From a virus: a stretch of DNA of 22,096 nucleotides. The notes under the pieces are model-generated. The model saw only the letters and a program-made list of their open reading frames with translations, did not search any database and had not been told where the DNA came from. The DNA is taken from positions 1 through 22,096 of the IMG/VR virus record IMGVR_UViG_3300007734_000474; one strand, 5' to 3'. This document shows positions 7,016 through 20,712 of this stretch, piece by piece. Both the position numbers and the translations under genes were made by a program. Position 1 is the first letter of the stretch; each line of letters opens with the position of its first letter.

Positions 7016-7981
7016 ATGGAAATTATGCTTTTTAACTCTAAGACTGCCCCCGCTCACGTTCGCGCAGGGCAGCTTTCCGAAACTGCCAAAGCCCTGTCGG
7101 GCGGTGCAGGCAACAACATCAAGCGCGTCAGCACAAAGGGTGGTGTGTTTCGTTTGATGGCTGGCGGCAAAGAGGTCGCCAACATTGAGGAGCGCCACCT
7201 TGATATCGTGATCGTACTGGCTGCCCCCAAGGTCAGCCGCATTTTCTATGCAGCAGCGTACGACAGCGACAAGATTGCGCCCCCTGACTGTTCTTCCACA
7301 GATGGCGAAACGCCTGATGCGGGTGTGGCTAACAAGCAGTCCGACAGTTGCATGGGTTGCCCCCAGAACATTGCTGGCTCTGGCAACGGCAACAGCCGTG
7401 CATGCCGCTACCAGCAACGTCTGGCTGTGGTGTTGGAGGATGCCATTGATGATGATGTGCTGCAACTCACGTTGCCAGCAACGTCCATCTTCGGTAAGGA
7501 TGAAGGCGACAGGCGCCCCCTGCAAGCCTACGCACGGTTCTTGGCGAACCAGAACCCCCCGGTTAACCCCGAGGCGGTTGTGACCCGCATGCGCTTTGAT
7601 ACCAAGGCAGAAGCCCCCAAGCTGTTCTTCCAACCCATGCGCTGGCTGACAGACGCCGAGTATGCTACCGTCATGCAGCAGGCTGCTACGCCTGATGCCA
7701 AGCGTGCCATCGCATCTACAGTGGCGGCGGCAGACGGCGTTAAAGCTGAGCCGTTGGCTCTGGCAGGCAAGGCTCCCAGCAAGCCCCCCGTTGTTGTTGT
7801 TGTTGAGGAAGAGGATGAAGAGGTTGTGCCGCCACCGCCAAAAGCAAAGAAGGCCAAACCTGCTCCAGCAGCAGAGGAGGAAGCAGAACCCGAGGTGCGT
7901 AAAACCGCAACCAAGGTGACGGCTGTCCCGGCTAAAAAGGGAAGCCTGTCTTCTATTGTGGCTGATTGGGACGACGAGTAA
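7016..7981 (+). CDS. Four-cysteine phage protein with acidic tail, candidate ssDNA-binding protein
   Basis: The 321-residue protein has an N-terminal beta-rich part (GGVFRLMAGGKEVANIEER, LDIVIVLAAPKVSRIFYAAA) and a putative zinc site formed by C92, C112-x2-C115 and C130 (CMGCPQN … RACRYQQRLAVV). After about residue 245 it becomes low complexity: runs of Val, Glu, Pro, Ala and Lys, ending in a short conserved-looking acidic tip, SLSSIVADWDDE. A disordered linker with an acidic tip is typical of ssDNA-binding proteins such as SSB or T7 gp2.5, where it recruits replication partners, so an SSB-like role is a reasonable inference, not a family match. CAGGAA sits before ATG 7016. A full-length antisense open frame over this gene is an artefact of codon bias. 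Confidence 0.75.
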   Translation: MEIMLFNSKTAPAHVRAGQLSETAKALSGGAGNNIKRVSTKGGVFRLMAGGKEVANIEERHLDIVIVLAAPKVSRIFYAAAYDSDKIAPPDCSSTDGETPDAGVANKQSDSCMGCPQNIAGSGNGNSRACRYQQRLAVVLEDAIDDDVLQLTLPATSIFGKDEGDRRPLQAYARFLANQNPPVNPEAVVTRMRFDTKAEAPKLFFQPMRWLTDAEYATVMQQAATPDAKRAIASTVAAADGVKAEPLALAGKAPSKPPVVVVVEEEDEEVVPPPPKAKKAKPAPAAEEEAEPEVRKTATKVTAVPAKKGSLSSIVADWDDE

Positions 7982-7989
7982 TATGTTGC

Positions 7990-8090
7990 TGGGGTACAAG
8001 CAGCGGTCGCATTACGTGGGTCGGGGTTCGTAGATTCCTCGTTAATTGATACGTACATATCCACGACTGCGTTTCCTGACTTGTACCCCA
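7990..8090. repeat. Nested imperfect inverted repeat in the only sizeable intergenic gap
   Basis: The gap 7982-8102 holds an exact 11-base inverted repeat, TGGGGTACAAG (7990-8000) and CTTGTACCCCA (8080-8090). Inside it, further collinear complementary pairs occur: 8008-8011 with 8068-8071, 8015-8019 with 8061-8065, and 8026-8032 with 8050-8056 (one mismatch). Together they would form a long interrupted hairpin with small internal loops. There is no T-run, so it is not a simple intrinsic terminator. The 3' arm ends 12 bases before the ATG of the helix-turn-helix gene, which itself lacks a Shine-Dalgarno. A structured RNA leader, an operator pair or a replication-related site are all possible. 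Confidence 0.6.
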
Positions 8091-8102
8091 CACTTAATAC
8101 CT

Positions 8103-8381
8103 ATGGCCTACTCACAAAAAATTATCGGACTCGTGGCGTCTACCCCTAAAACACTGGGCAACCAGCTAGGGCGGTGGGCAGTCCATCTCGATTTTCCCGT
8201 TACCAAGATAGCCCGTGCACTGGGTGTCACCCGTCAAACAGTCTATAACTGGTTCACAGGTACTGAAGTGTTCGTTGGCTATCGTGGGCGCGTGGAACTG
8301 CTTTTAAAAATTATGCAAGCCTCATCCACAGCAGATGAAGCATGGAGAAAAATATGCAAGGAATACAACCTCAAACCCTGA
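8103..8381 (+). CDS. Small helix-turn-helix DNA-binding protein
   Basis: A 92-residue protein with a clear helix-turn-helix at residues 33-52 (VTKIARALGVTRQTVYNW), followed by a 'FTG … VFVGYRGRVELLLKIM' segment and a C-terminal helix. It probably binds a specific DNA site, perhaps as a Cro/repressor-like regulator or a replication accessory factor. ATG 8103 is chosen over an upstream in-frame TTG at 8046, which would read through the inverted repeat and gives an unconvincing N-terminus. No Shine-Dalgarno is visible (CACACTTAATACCT), unusual for this window. The inverted repeat just upstream is an obvious candidate target for self-regulation. The 3' end overlaps the next gene. Confidence 0.75.
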   Translation: MAYSQKIIGLVASTPKTLGNQLGRWAVHLDFPVTKIARALGVTRQTVYNWFTGTEVFVGYRGRVELLLKIMQASSTADEAWRKICKEYNLKP

Positions 8382-11470: not shown

Positions 11471-11660
11471 ACGGGGGCAGGGGTTCTTCATCCCGTGCCT
11501 TGATATTGAAGCCGTAAGGGAGGAGGGGCTAAAGAAAGCGCTCTCCCTCCGCATGCTGGATGCCCGTGGTGTTACGGGCATCCGCAAAGGGTTTACGGGC
11601 GTGTGGTTCTATCGGTTAGCCGTTCGAAACTTACCGCAATCCGGTTCTGTTCCACCTTGA
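11433..11660 (+). CDS. Small hypothetical phage protein, 3' end overlapping the opposite-strand gene
   Basis: A 75-residue protein containing RGQGFFIPCLDIEAVREEGL, then KALSLRMLDARGVTGIRKGF and GVWFYR. I recognise this 'GQGFFVPCLD … VREEGL' type as a small phage protein commonly placed after replication genes; its function is unknown. GGAGGT five bases before ATG 11433 supports this start over ATG 11430. The first codons lie inside the primase-helicase gene. The last 68 bases overlap the 3' end of the giant gene on the other strand, and the residues coded there (LAVRNLPQSGSVPP) look less conserved than the rest. Confidence 0.75.
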   Translation: MPLVIRYPWRLIERGQGFFIPCLDIEAVREEGLKKALSLRMLDARGVTGIRKGFTGVWFYRLAVRNLPQSGSVPP

Positions 11661-14600
11661 GCTTATCCAGCATATTGTCCTTCTGCGCCGTGGTCATCGT
11701 AGGGTGCGCCCGTATCTTGCGCTCCATTGAGTACAGATCGCCCAAGCGTTTGAACGTCTGCCCAGACACAGCGGCAGCGGCCAGTTCGTTAGCGTAGCGC
11801 TGTGCAAACGCCGCAGCTTCCGCACGCTGCCCACGTTCCACCATGCTCACATAGGTCTGCCGTGCTTGCTGGACGCGCTCCATGTGGTCATAGGCCGCAT
11901 CAATAAACCCACGCCCTTCAGCCGACTGAAACAAGCCCCCGATCAAGGGCTGTTTGTTTAAAGGCACAGAGGCTTTCTCTCCTGTGCCACTAGCCCCTAA
12001 CAACGGGTCAAAAACTTGCAGCAGCGCCACACCCAAGCCGCCCGTGTACCCACGCACGAGGTGCGTCAGCATGATGGGCGACACACCCGCCATCCCGGTT
12101 ACTGACCCAGCTATGCGTAGCGCTTCAGGTGTCGTGTCTTTAAACCGGTACTCGGCTTGTATCTTCTTCTCCCGTTCCGACTCAATCGGGCCAACGGTAG
12201 TGCTTCCGTAAAACGCCTCTAGCACAGGCTTGGCGGCTGCTGGGACTACGCCCGGAACCGATTGCGCCAGCACACTACCTATACCTTTAAGTGCCTCCCG
12301 CGCTTTGACATCTCGGGCAGCAACGTCAATTAACATTTGTGGCAGTGCAACAAAGCCTAGCCCCACCTCGTATGGAATAGGTATCTTGAGCGGTTCTTTA
12401 AGCCCCGGCAATGGCATAAACAAGTTGCCGTAGCGTTCCGCAGGAGTGGCTTTCTTGTACGCCTCATCGTCCTGCATCATAAGAGCGTACGCCATAACGC
12501 CAACAGTCAGCATCGCCCCCCGTGCGTACAGCTTGCGCTTCAACTCCAGTTGTTCAGAGAACGGCAGCTTGCCCTTCAGCGCACGGTACAGCAAGTCCAA
12601 GCCCTGCACTTGGGAATTAAAAAACGGAACCAGCGTACTCAGCATGTGCATGCTGGGCGACAAGCCGTGCCGACCAAAGTTCTGAGACTCGGCGGCGTGA
12701 AGTTGCGCCCGGAATTCCGACAACCCTTTTTTTAACCCGTCTTGGTAGACCGTGGCGCGGGTAGCGGCGTCCGTCTGCAAGGCAAACGTATCTAGCGCCC
12801 CCATTGTTTTCTTCCACCAGTTCTTGCCGGTGGCAATGCTCTCAATGAACTGCTGCATGTCCCGTTCATTGCCGCTGAACACGTTGCTGCTAACCACCAA
12901 CCCACCACTGAGCGCTTCCTCGGCGGTGCTCGTGCCCATCCGCATTTTGCCGAGTTCTTTCAAGGCATTGAGTACGGGAACACCATCCACTCCAGACAGT
13001 ATGGCAGCGTTTATGGGGTCACGGACAAGCTGCCGAAACGGATACACAGGAGCGCGGGTAACAAACTTACGCACCAAATCTGCCGGGTAACCCAACGCAC
13101 GAACAAGAATCGGGATGGTGGTTTTAATCCCCGACATCCCTGCAACAATTAGTTCCGCAGGTATGCCAAAGGTATCTGAGTCAATCGTTGCAAAATGCGG
13201 CTCACCCTTTAGACGGTAGTGCACCGTGTCTTTAGATGCAAGCCCCTGCCCCTTACCCATCTTAGAAACAAACCCTGCTTTAAACAGCGCGTTGCTTGAC
13301 TCCAGCGACTCTTTGTTGTGCATCGACAGGCGCGTGAGCATGTAGGTGTTCTGCACAGAGCTTGTAAAAATAGGCAGGATCGTTTGCTCAGACCCTAGCA
13401 TGCGGACGAGTTCCGGGTCGTTTGAGATGTCACCTATGCGGATAGCGCTTTCGGAATCCGAGTACAGCTTGACAACCCCGTCCTCAACCCGATAGAACGG
13501 CACAAACGGCGTCTTCTTCAGTCGGGCAACTTCTTCTGCACTGAGTAGGTCGTGCTGTTCCGCAAAATCTAGCAGGCCGCTGTTGAACTGCTTGTACTCC
13601 AGCAGGGCCGCATCCATGTACTTTTTGGCCGTGGGGTTTGTTTTAAGATACGCAACGGCGTTTTCATACTCAGCTTTGGCCTCCGCAGCTTTCTTGCCAG
13701 CCAACCGCTCCCACCCATTGGGTACAGCGTCAGCACGCTGCCCCGCCACAATCCGGGTAAGCATCATCTCGCCATCTTCAACCCCAGACTTTTCAACATG
13801 CTCCGCGACACGCACCATAGTAGCGCCTGCTTTGCGTCCGTAACCATACTCACCCGTTTTTGGATCGCGTACTATGCTGATAGGCCCGTACGACAGGAAC
13901 TGCCCTACGGCCTGCGAAACCTTGTCGGCCATCCGCATGAAGTAGTTGGCTTGGAACAGTTCGTTGTTGGTCAGCTTGCCTGCTTTTTCAGCAGCAGCAA
14001 AGGCTGCTTCCCTCGCCGCCTTAGCGTCTACGTACTGCACCCGTCCAGCCAAACCTAAGAAGTTACCCCGGAAAGTTGTCAGCGCATCAGGGCTGCTACC
14101 AATAAACACTGACCGAGAAAACAACGGGCCTTTAGCTCGGCCGATAGGCTGCAAATTAATGCCTAGTATTTCCGGCTTAACGTCAATAAAAGCACGCTCA
14201 ACATATTTGCCACCATCATTATTTTGCTCAATGGCATCTATGCCTGCCGCTTTTAGAACTCGCATTGCTTTGTCAACGCCCAGAGCGTCTCGCATTTTAT
14301 AAAGCAGTAGGTTGGCGGGGTAGTTGCCATCTTCTTCGGCAAACCGTTTAGCGTACTCGTCCCCATACTGTTCAAGCAGCGCGTCAAGTTTTGGCCTATC
14401 ACCAACTGTAAAATTAGAATTGACTTGGTACACCCGCGCATTGGGAACGTCATCCAGTGTGCGATATAAGTTGCCTTGTTTGGGGCGTTCTTTTAAGCCT
14501 TTTATTTTTGAAACGTCAAGGGTGTTTACGGCGTCTAAGTCTGCTTGTGTGTCCACCAAAGCTTCTTCTAGCGCGGGTATTGCTGAACCGTTAGTTAGCT

Positions 14601-17600
14601 TAGTATGTTTGCCGTCAAGCGATGTTTTAACTACCCTTGCCGCTTTTAGACGATTTTTAATTTTTTCCAAATCACTCTTAAACTCATCTTTTTTATCCGC
14701 AATATACTCAATAGCCGCTTTGTTTTTTTCTGGGTCTATTGCATCCCCGTTTAACACACCATTTAAATAGCGCGTCAAAAGATTTGATTCATATAGTGTG
14801 CGTATATCTTCAAAGCTTAATCCTTCATTAACATCTGTTGTTATGCGGTTAAACTTGTCGTCCAAGTCACGGAACTGTTGGTATGACATGCCACCATAGC
14901 CGGTAGCATTAGATGCTTTACCAGCAGTAACTGCGGCTTGGTAATACTCAGCGTAATCTTTATCTGGGGTTACGTAAGGCCCGACACCAAGCGACTCTTC
15001 GCGTTTAAAACGACGATCAAAAGCTCCCTCGCCCTCCCCAGCAAATACTGTATCAAACGCCGTAAACGTGGCATCAGAGCCGTGCCATGTGCCCCGTAGT
15101 TCCAACTGAGCGCAGCCGTAGGCAAAGTTAACTAGGTCGCCTGCTTTGAGGCCGGACGGGTTTATACCAAAAGCCGCCAACGCTTTTTTGAATGCGTCAA
15201 CAACCATTTTTAGCCAGTTGTGCGCGGCGGTTCGATTAACAACGCCTGCGGGTTGAATACCTGCCTTGATGGCCTCTTCAACTGCGTAAGCAATGATCTC
15301 GTCGTCTACTTGATCGGCAGTAGTTTCAGCGGCTTCCACACGCGCAAGCGCAGCTTTACCAATCTTGGACTCAACAGAACCATCGTTACGTTTTGCCCAG
15401 TTTTTAACCGTAACGGCAATAGCGGTGTATTGCGCTTTGTTGAAAAAATTTCGGAACCCAATGTGCGCCCCGACCTCGTGCAGCGTAACCCCCAGCGCTT
15501 CACCTTTACCGATGTTGTCTGCAAACAAAAAGGCGCTGCCTTTGTACACAAGCCCTTTGACATTCCGTGGCACTCTACCTTCAGCCGTGGGGTAAAGTTC
15601 TATAAAATCTGCAACGGATTGAAACACCGTTAATTTTGCAGGTGGCGCAGGCTTGTTAGTTTTTTGTTTTGGTACTACGATGCCAGCTTCAGCAAGCTCG
15701 GCTGTAACACTTTCTACAGTAGTTGCGTTAGTTGGTTTGCCACGAGATAAAGAAATGTTTACCTCTTTTACCATAGAACCAGTTCCTTGATACCGGCCAA
15801 TTTCACCTGCCGTATCACCTTTTTCTCTTTTAACAGCCGCTAGGGTTTTGTTAAGTTCTATTATTTCTTTTTGCAGTTTTACTTCTTGTATATTAAGCCT
15901 CTGCATTGTTTCAGTAAGACGCCCCTTAACCTTGTCTTTGTTATTTGTGCGTAAATACGTTTGCTGCCGTTGCACTTCAACAAGCTCGGCTTTTTTGGCT
16001 GTTAGCGCCTCAATAGAAGCAACCCCCGTCGAACCCATTTGAGCCGTTGCAGATGGGGTTCCTGTTTGCGTAACTTGGTTGTTTTTGCCGTATGCCACGG
16101 CTCCTTTTTGCGTAGCAGGTAGCCTTGGCGCAACTCCCCCTTCTGCGGTTTGTTTGCGTTCAGCCCTTTCTGCTGCGTCTAAAAATAGTTTAACAAAATC
16201 GGCTTTTTCTTCGGGGTCAATTTCTGTAACAAGCCGAGGTGTTTTTATGTACACGCCAGCCAACTCTGCTTGAGCAACGTCTAGTTTTTTCTGTAACTCT
16301 ATTTTTTTAACAGGGTCTTTTTCCTTATCTAATGCGGCTAAAGCAGAACCTACTTTGCTGCGTAAACCTTTTATTTTGTCTTGCAACGCAGACGCATCTT
16401 CCGTAACACGCACGCCGGGGAGATCAAGCCCCTCTCGTCCAGCTTGGATGCTTTCAGTATATGGCTTTGTTTGTTCGGATGCTGCCTCGTCCGGTTTTGC
16501 AGTTGCATCCGCAACTTCTTGACGGGCTTTTTCCAATTCTGCTTTTGCTTTTTCTGCTTCTTCGGTTGCTGCGCGTGCGTCTTGTCTGGCTATCTTGGTC
16601 AAAGTTCCTGCGGACGCATTCTCTATAAGCAGCAAGTCGTTAAATTTAGCACGCGCCTTTTCTACCATTTTTTGAGCGTTTGCAATGTACCCTTCTGTCT
16701 CTGCAATCTCTTTACCAAACGGATCGGAAGAATTTAGTTGATTAAGCGCGGCTCTTAGCGCGGGTGTGTTTTCTAACTCGGCTTCTTGCACAAACTGCAC
16801 AAACATTTGTTTAGCCGCGGGGTCGCCCTGCAATGTGAGGATGCCTTCTCGCAATGAACGCAGTTCGGCCAAGTCCTTCGGGACATGCTGCAACTCTGTC
16901 TCCAAAGCCACAACTTCCCGCACTGCCGGGGCAAACCACACAGGCTCCCCACCAACTAAAGCAACTGTTTCTTTAGCTGCTTTTGCTTTCTCTAAGGCTC
17001 GATTGTGTTTTGTTATTGCCGTGCTCAATGCGTTCTGCACATCTTGCGTTTGTTTTTTTAGTGCGCCATTTGTCTTTTTAATCTTGTCTTTAAGTGCCGC
17101 AACTTTTTTTGAATCTAGTAACTCTCGGAAAGTTTCTGGTGTGCTGCGTACCGTTTGAAAAGGGGTTGTGCGGAACGCCGCATTAAACATATCCTTAAGT
17201 GGGCTCTTACTTGCGGCAGGCAACTTTTCATATTCAGCCTCACTCACCCCCATGTTTTTTAAGAAGCCAGAAAACTCACGGCCAAAAGCAGGTTCTTCAA
17301 ACAGTTCTAGTTGGGGCTGGGCACTGGTGCGCTGCAAGTCTGCCAGCGTGGCTCCGGGCTGCGTGCCACTAGCGCCTTCTCTTTCCTGAAACTTTATCGC
17401 GGCTTGCAGTTCCAGAACCGCATTGGGGCTGGGCAAGTTACCTTCTAAGACCTGCTGCGCTTGTTGCCGTGCCAGAGTAATTATGTCTGGATCGCTTATT
17501 TTGGGTAGCGCCTCGGCCAGTTGTTCTAGCAGCGCTTGTGTTGCAGGGTCGGTGCGTGCCGACACACCTCCGCCCTTTTCTGCGGCAAACAGTTGGGCAA

Positions 17601-20600
17601 TATCTTGCAGACTGCCTACTTTTTCCGGGGCTGCCTTCTCGGCTGTTGGTACTGCACGAGTTCTGGTTTTAACTGTGCTGAGTACTGCCTCAATCAGATT
17701 GAGGGCATCTTGTTTTTCATTGCTTGCACGATAGGGCGTGCCTTTTAATTCCAACGTAGCTGGCGCAGCAATTCGTTTTCCTTCTAATGGCGCTGGCGGC
17801 AAAGGAGTTTTACGCCCTTGTGCATCCTCATAGTAGTGCGTGGCAGGCTTAGTTATTTTTTCCTGTAACTCTGAGGTTTGCTTCGATAACAAACGGGCAG
17901 CGGCTTTTTGCAAGTTGTCCGTTATGTTGTTTCGCATCTGCTCTTGAATAGCAAGTGCTGCCGCATGCCGAGACTCAAACACATTCCAACGATCTTGCAG
18001 TTCGTTGAAACCCTCCATAACACGCGCACGGGCATCTGCGGCTTCCCATGTCGCCATTTCTGGGATGCCAAACGCTTTGCGTCTTTCGTTTATTTCTGCC
18101 GCATGTGCTGCCGCATAGGCTTCTTTGGCTTTGTCAAATTGCGTTTTGATTCCTTTTGCAGGGTCTAGAGTTAACGTGCCCGGAATTCGATTAAACCGAA
18201 GCGTGTTCAGTATTTTTACTACATCCAACAGCACTTTATTTTGCTTGTCGGCATGCATCTCTGCATTTGCTTCCGTTGCACGCCCTTCCGCTAACGTGCC
18301 AAACCCCAATGCAGACTGCAATCCCGTGGTAATTGCACCCCGCGCCGCCGTGTCTTGTTTACGGGCGTCTTGTAGGTCGGCTATAAGCGCTGTTTGGGCT
18401 TCCTTATTTCCTGTAAGCCGCGCTATTTGAAATTTAGCTTGCAAATCGTTGAGCATGCGCCGAGGGGAAACACCCAACCCTTGCTGTATTTGTCCGGGAG
18501 TTACGGTGGCGGCTTTGGGCAGTGTTGCAACAAGCTGGTCTATTGCCGGGATGTCTTCTAGCGTTTCTGTCTCGGGCAAGGCTTCTTGAGACACCCCCGT
18601 GTTGCTTGCTCGTAGAATATTGGCTTCCGCCAAAGTTCCCCGTTCCGCAGAACGAAACGGTTTCTGCGCCTCTCGTTCAGCCGCAGTGGTGGCAATGTTT
18701 GCATTGGCAAGGTCTTCATTGGACTGTTGAAGTAGTGCCAATGGGTCTTTTGAAACTGTTGTTTTCTGACCTGCTAAAAGACTCGTAGCAGCGTCCGCTT
18801 CGTCTTTGTCTATGGCCCGTTGCTGCGTACGCAGCCCCTCTATGTAACCGGGCTCTGTAAGAGAACGCTGAACAATCGGTGTGTTTTTGGGAATCCCATA
18901 CGATTTGATTTCTTCTTCAAGCGCATCAATCTGTGCAACAAGCCGGTCTGCTTTAACCGGGTCAAAACCTTCCCCAGCCATAGCTTTAAGTCTTTTTTTA
19001 GCCGTATCTAGCTTCTGCTGTGTCTGTGCAACAACATTCTCCGGGGACTGAACGCCGCCTAAATCCGATAGTTTGTTGGTGACGTAATCCAACTCCGTCT
19101 GTAGTTTCTTGCGCTCACCGCTGAGTTGTTTGATTGCTGCCGTGTCCGCATCACTAGCCGCATCCGATGCAGCGGTCTGGTTGTATTCCAAAAGCCGTCT
19201 GACTTCTTGCTGCTTTGTTGCAAAGTCTGTAATCTGCGCTTGTGTATCTACATCGGGCGCGGGTGTTGGAGGTTGTTCTACGGCGTCCATCCCGGGCAGC
19301 GTTGCTTGCGGAGATTCAAAGTATGGTTGTTTCTGGGCATCCTGCGCGACATCAGTTTGAGCCGCAGTTTCTACTGCTTGCATCCGGTCGGTTTCCGCAG
19401 CGTCTAAGATTGGCTTGACCCGGCGGTATTCTTTAGCTGCCTCTGTAAGTACTACAGCGTTTTCTTTTAGTTTCTTTGCGGTTTCTGTGTTTGCTTGCTT
19501 GTCTACTTCCGTCAAGGGTTTATCTTTAGTGCCCTTGATTATTTGAGCAAGCAAGTCAGTTTTATTCTTTTCGGCTGCAAAGTATGCTTGCTCTGCTTGT
19601 TTGGCATACTCAGGGGTTTGTTTGCTGGCTTCCAGTTGGGCAGCGGCAGCGTCCTGCTGGGCTTTCTGGGCTAGGTTGGCTTCTGCATCTGTTTGTATTT
19701 TTTGTTGAGCAGTTACATCTCGGGCATTGCTGCGTTCTTTTAAAGCAAAACCGCCTCCAAGCGGAGAGGCTAGCGCCATGTTTAGCGCTGTGTTGCGGTA
19801 CTGCGTAATGGCTTCGTCGTCTGCAAGGGGCTTGCCAACAGCGGCCCGGTCTATGACATCTTGGAAAATCTCAGTGGGTAATTCACCAATGGCAAACCGC
19901 CCCGTACCGTAGCCAATAGTCGCCATAGTGCCGCGACCAGCAGTCTTAGTGGCTTCAGCCATCAACGCTGCACGGGCCGCATCGCCCGATTCCTCTGCCA
20001 CTCTCTGACCAATGGCCTTCTTAAAGATACCCGGCATTGCAATCTTCGTACCGACTAGATTGGCTGCGGCATTGGCGGCTGCATAGGGCGCAAGCTCTAG
20101 CGCGTTGACATCTGGTTTCTCCCCGGCTTCTATTTGGGTCTGTACCTTTTCCTGTGCTTGGCTTCCCAGTGCTTGAATGGCATTGACAATGAGAGGAACC
20201 GCATATTGGCCGATTTGCGAACCCACTGCTGCTGCACCGGGTAAAGGAACCAAAGCCCCAGCCGCCCCACCAGCCAACCTACCAAGTGCCGCCGATCCTA
20301 TTTCTTGCCCAACGGACGGTAGTAGTCCAGCAATGGCAGACGGCACTTGACTAATAGCTTCACCAGCAGCACCAAGGTACTCACCACTGTTGAACTTGTC
20401 TACGATTTTCTGGGGCTGAAACCCGGGTGTGTATGCTTTTGCTGCTTCCTCTTGGCGTTTGGCCCCTTCCATTGCGGCGGCAGTTGTGTCCCCTGTGAGA
20501 GCGCCCAGACCCGTACGCCCAATATTCAGCAGGTTTCTTGCACTGGATTTAACATCGGCCAACAGCCCCGTTTCAGGTTTGGGGCCTTCTACAGGTGCAA

Positions 20601-20712
20601 TACTTGCTAAATGCATTTTCAACGCCCGGATAACTTGGGCATCCGAAGCGTCGTCTGGCCCCTCAATGGAATAGGTGCGCCCGTCAGGGCCGTCTACGTT
20701 GTATATACGCAT
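11593..20712 (-). CDS. Giant polyvalent/internal virion protein with metallopeptidase and ADP-ribosyltransferase-like domains
   Basis: The 3039-residue product is one uninterrupted frame. In order: residues 1-40, a small beta N-terminus (YNVDGPDGRTYSIEGP); 115-225, Gly/Ala-rich, partly hydrophobic, possibly membrane-active, followed by ELPTEIFQDVIDRAA (277-291); about 325-1650, long Lys/Glu/Gln/Ala coiled coils; about 1690-1820, a zincin-type domain with HEVGAH (1745-1750) and a downstream acidic helix DDEIIAYAVEE; 1875-2185, an ADP-ribosyltransferase-like domain opening with TWHGS (H1877), then GVGPYVTPDKDYAEYY and ending YVERAFIDVKPEIL; 2190-3039, a helical region with FVTRAPVYPFRQLVRDP (about 2547) and a hydrophobic stretch near 2727-2743. 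This matches phage polyvalent proteins, thought to be packed in the virion and injected. No lytic transglycosylase motif was found. The start lacks a Shine-Dalgarno and follows the upstream stop by nine bases, so coupling is likely. Confidence 0.88.
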   Translation of the reverse strand: MRIYNVDGPDGRTYSIEGPDDASDAQVIRALKMHLASIAPVEGPKPETGLLADVKSSARNLLNIGRTGLGALTGDTTAAAMEGAKRQEEAAKAYTPGFQPQKIVDKFNSGEYLGAAGEAISQVPSAIAGLLPSVGQEIGSAALGRLAGGAAGALVPLPGAAAVGSQIGQYAVPLIVNAIQALGSQAQEKVQTQIEAGEKPDVNALELAPYAAANAAANLVGTKIAMPGIFKKAIGQRVAEESGDAARAALMAEATKTAGRGTMATIGYGTGRFAIGELPTEIFQDVIDRAAVGKPLADDEAITQYRNTALNMALASPLGGGFALKERSNARDVTAQQKIQTDAEANLAQKAQQDAAAAQLEASKQTPEYAKQAEQAYFAAEKNKTDLLAQIIKGTKDKPLTEVDKQANTETAKKLKENAVVLTEAAKEYRRVKPILDAAETDRMQAVETAAQTDVAQDAQKQPYFESPQATLPGMDAVEQPPTPAPDVDTQAQITDFATKQQEVRRLLEYNQTAASDAASDADTAAIKQLSGERKKLQTELDYVTNKLSDLGGVQSPENVVAQTQQKLDTAKKRLKAMAGEGFDPVKADRLVAQIDALEEEIKSYGIPKNTPIVQRSLTEPGYIEGLRTQQRAIDKDEADAATSLLAGQKTTVSKDPLALLQQSNEDLANANIATTAAEREAQKPFRSAERGTLAEANILRASNTGVSQEALPETETLEDIPAIDQLVATLPKAATVTPGQIQQGLGVSPRRMLNDLQAKFQIARLTGNKEAQTALIADLQDARKQDTAARGAITTGLQSALGFGTLAEGRATEANAEMHADKQNKVLLDVVKILNTLRFNRIPGTLTLDPAKGIKTQFDKAKEAYAAAHAAEINERRKAFGIPEMATWEAADARARVMEGFNELQDRWNVFESRHAAALAIQEQMRNNITDNLQKAAARLLSKQTSELQEKITKPATHYYEDAQGRKTPLPPAPLEGKRIAAPATLELKGTPYRASNEKQDALNLIEAVLSTVKTRTRAVPTAEKAAPEKVGSLQDIAQLFAAEKGGGVSARTDPATQALLEQLAEALPKISDPDIITLARQQAQQVLEGNLPSPNAVLELQAAIKFQEREGASGTQPGATLADLQRTSAQPQLELFEEPAFGREFSGFLKNMGVSEAEYEKLPAASKSPLKDMFNAAFRTTPFQTVRSTPETFRELLDSKKVAALKDKIKKTNGALKKQTQDVQNALSTAITKHNRALEKAKAAKETVALVGGEPVWFAPAVREVVALETELQHVPKDLAELRSLREGILTLQGDPAAKQMFVQFVQEAELENTPALRAALNQLNSSDPFGKEIAETEGYIANAQKMVEKARAKFNDLLLIENASAGTLTKIARQDARAATEEAEKAKAELEKARQEVADATAKPDEAASEQTKPYTESIQAGREGLDLPGVRVTEDASALQDKIKGLRSKVGSALAALDKEKDPVKKIELQKKLDVAQAELAGVYIKTPRLVTEIDPEEKADFVKLFLDAAERAERKQTAEGGVAPRLPATQKGAVAYGKNNQVTQTGTPSATAQMGSTGVASIEALTAKKAELVEVQRQQTYLRTNNKDKVKGRLTETMQRLNIQEVKLQKEIIELNKTLAAVKREKGDTAGEIGRYQGTGSMVKEVNISLSRGKPTNATTVESVTAELAEAGIVVPKQKTNKPAPPAKLTVFQSVADFIELYPTAEGRVPRNVKGLVYKGSAFLFADNIGKGEALGVTLHEVGAHIGFRNFFNKAQYTAIAVTVKNWAKRNDGSVESKIGKAALARVEAAETTADQVDDEIIAYAVEEAIKAGIQPAGVVNRTAAHNWLKMVVDAFKKALAAFGINPSGLKAGDLVNFAYGCAQLELRGTWHGSDATFTAFDTVFAGEGEGAFDRRFKREESLGVGPYVTPDKDYAEYYQAAVTAGKASNATGYGGMSYQQFRDLDDKFNRITTDVNEGLSFEDIRTLYESNLLTRYLNGVLNGDAIDPEKNKAAIEYIADKKDEFKSDLEKIKNRLKAARVVKTSLDGKHTKLTNGSAIPALEEALVDTQADLDAVNTLDVSKIKGLKERPKQGNLYRTLDDVPNARVYQVNSNFTVGDRPKLDALLEQYGDEYAKRFAEEDGNYPANLLLYKMRDALGVDKAMRVLKAAGIDAIEQNNDGGKYVERAFIDVKPEILGINLQPIGRAKGPLFSRSVFIGSSPDALTTFRGNFLGLAGRVQYVDAKAAREAAFAAAEKAGKLTNNELFQANYFMRMADKVSQAVGQFLSYGPISIVRDPKTGEYGYGRKAGATMVRVAEHVEKSGVEDGEMMLTRIVAGQRADAVPNGWERLAGKKAAEAKAEYENAVAYLKTNPTAKKYMDAALLEYKQFNSGLLDFAEQHDLLSAEEVARLKKTPFVPFYRVEDGVVKLYSDSESAIRIGDISNDPELVRMLGSEQTILPIFTSSVQNTYMLTRLSMHNKESLESSNALFKAGFVSKMGKGQGLASKDTVHYRLKGEPHFATIDSDTFGIPAELIVAGMSGIKTTIPILVRALGYPADLVRKFVTRAPVYPFRQLVRDPINAAILSGVDGVPVLNALKELGKMRMGTSTAEEALSGGLVVSSNVFSGNERDMQQFIESIATGKNWWKKTMGALDTFALQTDAATRATVYQDGLKKGLSEFRAQLHAAESQNFGRHGLSPSMHMLSTLVPFFNSQVQGLDLLYRALKGKLPFSEQLELKRKLYARGAMLTVGVMAYALMMQDDEAYKKATPAERYGNLFMPLPGLKEPLKIPIPYEVGLGFVALPQMLIDVAARDVKAREALKGIGSVLAQSVPGVVPAAAKPVLEAFYGSTTVGPIESEREKKIQAEYRFKDTTPEALRIAGSVTGMAGVSPIMLTHLVRGYTGGLGVALLQVFDPLLGASGTGEKASVPLNKQPLIGGLFQSAEGRGFIDAAYDHMERVQQARQTYVSMVERGQRAEAAAFAQRYANELAAAAVSGQTFKRLGDLYSMERKIRAHPTMTTAQKDNMLDKLKVEQNRIAVSFERLTDRTTRP

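Follow-up and report, generated by a model that had tools for sequence, protein, structure and literature searches.

We find that the one sizeable gap in the gene run of an uncultured phage holds a member of a covariation-supported phage RNA family that is absent from Rfam, and that the slot in which it lies is occupied, from one phage to the next, by interchangeable kinds of hairpin. The window, a 22-kb IMG/VR virus record analysed over its full 22,096 nucleotides, would encode this class A RNA at positions 7989–8090 (+ strand) as part of a replication-region transcript. That the spacer functions as a folded RNA, as an earlier note on this DNA had proposed, has strong support from covariation and from G-U pairs possible only on the + strand. 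In our best overall reading, to which we give about even chances, class A is an exchangeable RNA whose hairpin bridges the spacer in cis and whose domain acts independently of the helix-turn-helix (HTH) gene that follows.

The gap at 7982–8102, which the earlier note had called the only real one, is the only one longer than 40 nt in the listed + strand gene run, and its 11-base inverted repeat is present as described, with perfectly matching arms at 7990–8000 and 8080–8090 separated by 79 nt. The repeat had been called unlikely by chance, which holds within the 121-nt spacer, where mononucleotide shuffles gave an 11-bp perfect inverted repeat in 4 of 5000 trials, and does not hold across the whole window, where dinucleotide shuffles gave 0–2 such pairs and one pair is about the expectation; the arms by themselves are therefore modest evidence. 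Minimum-free-energy folding of the spacer as RNA, a check that the note had proposed, gave −42.0 kcal/mol (z = −3.0, equalled by 0 of 200 shuffles), an energy that does not tell the + and − strands apart. The three further complementary segments said to nest inside the repeat proved real, being the helices P1b/P2, P3, P4 and P5 of one long hairpin, and all are kept in relatives. The inverted repeat is the basal stem of this ~102-nt structured RNA.

The whole hairpin (7989–8090, with all its parts on the + strand) was delimited by fold z-score, covariation and covariance model R1. Its basal stem P1 pairs 7990–8000 with 8080–8090 over 11 bp, and the sequence varies by subgroup (GGGGUACAAG, GCUGGGGUGG, GCUAGGCCGCAG and, with an extra side hairpin, GGGGGUAGC) with pairing kept throughout. 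Above it, the 5′ side of P1b/P2 (8001–8006) pairs CA at 8001–8002 with 8077–8078 and GG at 8005–8006 with 8075–8076, enclosing a conserved GC bulge at 8003–8004. P3 joins CGCA at 8008–8011 to UGCG at 8068–8071 and is largely invariant, partly through the search pattern; P4 joins 8015–8021 to 8059–8065, with double changes at 5 of 7 pairs; and P5 joins CGGGG at 8022–8026 to CCUCG at 8037–8041 around a variable loop (8027–8036). The 3′ side carries a conserved one-sided internal loop 3′ of P5 (UYA ... ACA, 8042–8058) and the conserved ACUGCGUUUCC strand (8066–8079), which contains the 3′ sides of P3 and P2 and a UUU internal loop at 8072–8074. A 12-nt linker (8091–8102) without a Shine–Dalgarno (SD) sequence leads to the start codon.

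A covariation search upstream of the HTH gene in relatives, likewise suggested in the earlier note, found the paired arms kept and double changes present. Covariation among 51 distinct relatives, with 102 occurrences, backs the five nested helices; all these relatives are metagenomic, and their loci are not independent samples. In the A2 alignment of 29 sequences, 97.6% of cells are paired, compared with 88.2% after shuffling and 31–53% after sliding, and 12 of 24 pairs show changes on both sides. P4 and P5 pairs switch among GC, UA, AU and CG across the 51 distinct cores, and the near-invariance of P2 and P3 is in part built in, those letters having been fixed by the search pattern. At one P5 pair, 48 of the 51 cores have G-U, which would be a C-A mismatch on the opposite strand and so places the RNA on the + strand.

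Rfam 15 gave no relevant match for the window spacer (E up to 10) or for L010 (E up to 5), and at permissive thresholds the window, L026, L051 and L010 drew chance-level matches alone, none near a gathering threshold. ARAGORN found no tRNA or tmRNA cloverleaf in the window; a scan for sigma-70-like promoters found none at the hairpin; and a terminator scan of the spacer on the + strand found no GC hairpin with a U-tract, the tail reading CACUUAAUACC. Covariance model R1 detects no more than one copy, in the HTH slot, in any long record of the group, and when 16 such records were searched whole, one copy was present in 4 and none in 12. A nucleotide search of cultured phages and plasmids with the RNA returned short chance matches alone, and the best cultured-phage matches, L329 and L330, were discarded as class A members on a zero score with the covariance model. 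Candidates from a loosened pattern (L333–L338) also went unrecognised by the model, L336 reaching merely E 0.06, and GTACCCCCACC outside the slot amounts to chance 11-mers. An integron attC site, a class with variable terminal structure, was set aside by inspection alone, as paired core motifs were not seen.

The genes on either side define the slot. The upstream gene (7016–7981, +; PHROG_27714, E = 2e-31), whose TAA stop codon at 7979–7981 lies 8 nt before the basal stem, encodes a protein with an acidic C-terminal tail (...DWDDE) that may be ssDNA-binding-like, judging from this tail and the neighbourhood alone; a fold search with a weak model (pLDDT 63) gave no confident relative. Its cysteines 92, 112, 115 and 130 are invariant, which suggests a zinc site, and the tail, modelled with low confidence, is probably disordered. 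The HTH gene (8103–8381, +; PF13384, E = 4.6e-6) starts with the ATG at 8103, encodes 92 aa and is conserved in all slot relatives; its protein model is all-helical (pLDDT 93), a fold search found no confident relative and cultured phages gave no match. Its relatives in viral contigs number in the hundreds, with 240 locus rows from three protein searches and further loci added by DNA patterns. Metagenome-assembled genome contigs that carry the gene, titled ErkenSummer and Kiruna, suggest lake water and were taken as mis-binned phage, and primase comparison puts Pseudomonas phage Rollin and Rhizobium phages nearest among cultured phages, at 23–24% identity. In many loci, L016, L049, L067 and L077 among them, the interval from the SSB-like gene to the HTH gene has taken up cargo genes, before or after the RNA, and one cargo gene (MAIIFPANTRG..KAMAK) ends 1–2 nt before the HTH start, occupying the hairpin's place. 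Farther along the window, a 3039-residue ORF (11593–20712, −) is convergent with the replication genes.

Across ~270 related loci, the slot between the PHROG_27714 and HTH genes nearly always contains a hairpin: 133 of 141 distinct spacers compared have one, and the 8 that do not are 0–8 nt long. The L199 clade lacks a slot hairpin entirely. Besides class A, we distinguish class S, a plain C(UUCG)G hairpin and similar; class B, with the form GGGGG-GAA ... AGUA-CCCCC, which resembles a bulged-G loop E and has a hypervariable tip; and a remaining class of others. Some tips are common to differing stems or backgrounds, such as the tRNA T-arm-like element GUGAGUUCGAAUCUCAC that ends the loop-E-type hairpins of L026 (4840–5000), L031 and L080, for which ARAGORN reported no tRNA and Rfam a weak tmRNA fragment alone (E 0.037). 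One ~50-nt tip module (GGCAACCAAGG..CUGUAAGCCAG) sits on differing basal stems in L011, L078 and L021, as if tips were exchanged separately. The spacer before the HTH gene in L162 and L136 holds a minimal ~29-nt loop-E hairpin that keeps GAA/AGUA and has almost lost its tip, which suggests that the bulged-G motif itself is under selection.

These hairpins are exchanged between close relatives. L119 and L012 share 99.4% identity across 900 nt upstream of the slot and 99.4% across 1,295 nt downstream of it, and the former carries a 136-nt class A spacer where the latter carries a 32-nt UUCG spacer; a second exchange pair, L092 and L268, is 94.5% identical upstream and 99.2% downstream. Mapped onto a 188-row tree, slot class requires at least 60 changes, compared with 88–105 for shuffled labels. 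RNA structures are thus exchanged in one slot between otherwise ~99% identical phages, and phage pairs that differ mainly in the RNA offer natural knock-outs.

Slot hairpins range from 14 to 129 nt in spacers of 25–146 nt in total, and the spacer outside the hairpin comes to 2–24 nt (MFE hairpin) or 6–26 nt (fixed stem borders); only 44% of shuffled spacers of at least 55 nt are equally compact. Of 131 slots, 62 have an SD word immediately 5′ of the hairpin, at least 5 letters long in 48 of the 62, and in no slot does one lie between the hairpin and the start codon. Within the 62, looping out the hairpin shortens the SD-to-AUG distance from 22–132 nt along the linear sequence to 6–19 nt. Of the primase starts of these phages, 97% carry an SD word, and in the UUCG hairpins inspected before genes elsewhere in these genomes the SD lies 3′ of the hairpin. 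We propose that closure of the hairpin loops the long spacer out and would thereby keep an upstream ribosome signal near the HTH start codon, many relatives having an SD as this signal and the window probably a ribosome terminating at the TAA. Keeping the start codon within reach in this way is the best-supported cis effect, and one that would act on translation.

In the window, neither the leader GAGTAATATGTTGC nor the linker CACTTAATACCT flanking the hairpin contains an SD, in agreement with the earlier note's description of an HTH gene without one before ATG 8103, and the hairpin's bridging role there would consequently rest on stop-to-start reinitiation. In the window's SD-less subgroup, 8 nt separate the TAA from the stem and 12 nt separate the stem from the start codon, a spacing that would suit such reinitiation. 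In L312, L025, L072 and others the RNA is followed by a gene with an SD of its own, so bridging by the RNA is not universal, and in the cultured phage Rollin a hairpin follows the upstream gene and precedes a normal SD. In class A loci such as L010, L092 and L275, leader and linker can pair (AAGG/CCUU, GAG/CUC and AAAG/CUUU), a possible stem extension that would mask the SD.

The class A core also occurs elsewhere (model R1, E below 1e-14), giving the family at least four genomic contexts. In L312, L313 and L316 it lies between a PHROG_27714 gene and a primase gene with its own SD, with no HTH gene; in L311, whose record also contains an integrase-like ORF, it has a PHROG_862 gene (ending ...DDPEDCPF) before it and a Gp157 gene after it; and in L314/L331 it comes after the final gene of a minus-strand operon with an SSB gene (...DDDIPF) among its members, with a terminator (AAGCCGGG-AUGAA-CCCGGCUUUUUUU) and a convergent gene directly after it. 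The three records with other contexts have one core copy each. No gene follows the RNA in L314/L331, so a leader role is impossible there, and a core found before primase, before Gp157 and once without a downstream gene is not simply an HTH leader. Its internal loops are kept across four contexts in a core of 70–88 nt and call for a further explanation, and the core that lacks a downstream gene makes a role in trans or as a 3′-UTR element likelier than HTH control.

Several other explanations were weighed. One is a DNA element, either a paired operator for the HTH protein or a replication origin, both raised in the earlier note; in its favour, the inverted repeat adjoins the HTH gene and replication genes. 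We consider it highly improbable: in a comparison of site presence, L012 has a short UUCG hairpin in place of the entire element and thus lacks the site despite flanks 99.4% identical to those of L119, the G-U pairs become C-A mismatches on the other strand, and GC skew shows no origin-like change at 8 kb. The high exchange rate and the cargo genes in the same interval would suit a recombination joint resembling a PeSL, with hairpin arms selected for cassette shuffling, but no promoter was found in the element and joints alone would not keep the internal loops, leaving this improbable. The earlier note's folded leader survives in part, as the RNA is folded and control of the HTH gene can be at most a portion of its role. 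An HTH-specific cis-regulatory leader, riboswitch-like or protein-sensing, would account for the HTH gene that follows most occurrences and for the AAGG of the 5′ leader, which could pair with CCUU of the 3′ linker in several class A members; with no HTH gene after the RNA in L311, L312 and L314, and with unrelated hairpins swapped in before the same HTH gene, we judge it unlikely.

Two further accounts are doubtful but worth more. The hairpin could belong to the 3′ end of the upstream gene, as an intercistronic mRNA stabiliser, RNase III processing site or attenuator: it is found after that gene in most loci, many with inserted genes, and in Rollin, the L314 core stands just before a terminator, and a CUUCGG hairpin stabilises T4 gene 32 mRNA, according to PMC8948821. 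Such a role sits poorly with a window that has no U-tract and no terminator in the scan, with the hairpin-free L199 clade and with L102/L103, where the RNA follows an inserted gene rather than the SSB-like gene. A purely cis account, for which we see perhaps a one-in-several chance, would make the hairpin a spacer-folding device (a split ribosome-binding site or translational coupling) and the class A body tolerated cargo. The narrow range outside the hairpin whatever its kind, the SD placed solely 5′ of it, the plain UUCG hairpins that serve the same job in near-identical phages and the precedent in T4 genes 38 and 25 (PMC3014915) all speak for it, but it leaves unexplained both the conserved internal loops of the core in four contexts and L314, where no gene follows.

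We therefore return to class A as one of several exchangeable hairpin cassettes between the ssDNA-binding-like and HTH genes, a bridge in cis with a domain of its own. This domain most likely has a role of its own, apart from the HTH gene, as a putative protein-binding RNA that could be released from the transcript or serve as a 3′-UTR element; that near-identical phages do without it counts against this reading. More tentatively, class A might be an autonomous phage non-coding RNA with a function in trans, such as binding a host or defence protein, traded as a cassette at a fixed slot that also hosts loop-E modules, so that the phages would hold a swappable set of RNAs. If the RNA does act in trans, this would hint at RNA-level competition with hosts.

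Known phage systems share parts of this arrangement. The plain slot alternative is exactly of the kind described for CUUCGG intercistronic hairpins of phages (Tuerk 1988, as relayed in PMC8948821), whereas the class A and loop-E hairpins are much bigger than those in that account and of another type. PeSL cassettes of T4-type phages likewise place stem-loops at junctions with heavy modular exchange (Arbiol 2010 and Comeau 2014, as relayed in PMC4503421); unlike the cassettes of that summary, the slot element has no early promoter in our scan, keeps to one main slot and contains a conserved RNA core. The closest parallel for the cis part of the proposed mechanism is the split ribosome-binding site of T4 genes 38 and 25, where a hairpin between SD and AUG cuts the effective distance from 22 to 5 and from 27 to 11 nt (PMC3014915). 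The slot relatives resemble it in the shortening of the SD-to-AUG distance across 62 slots and in the consistent 5′ placement of the SD, and differ in that the hairpin can hold a structured domain of more than 100 nt that is exchanged between close relatives, and in that neither side of the hairpin shows an SD in the window. The looping-out proposed here would thus follow the T4 principle and extend it from two genes to a whole uncultured phage group, with up to ~130 nt between SD and start codon.
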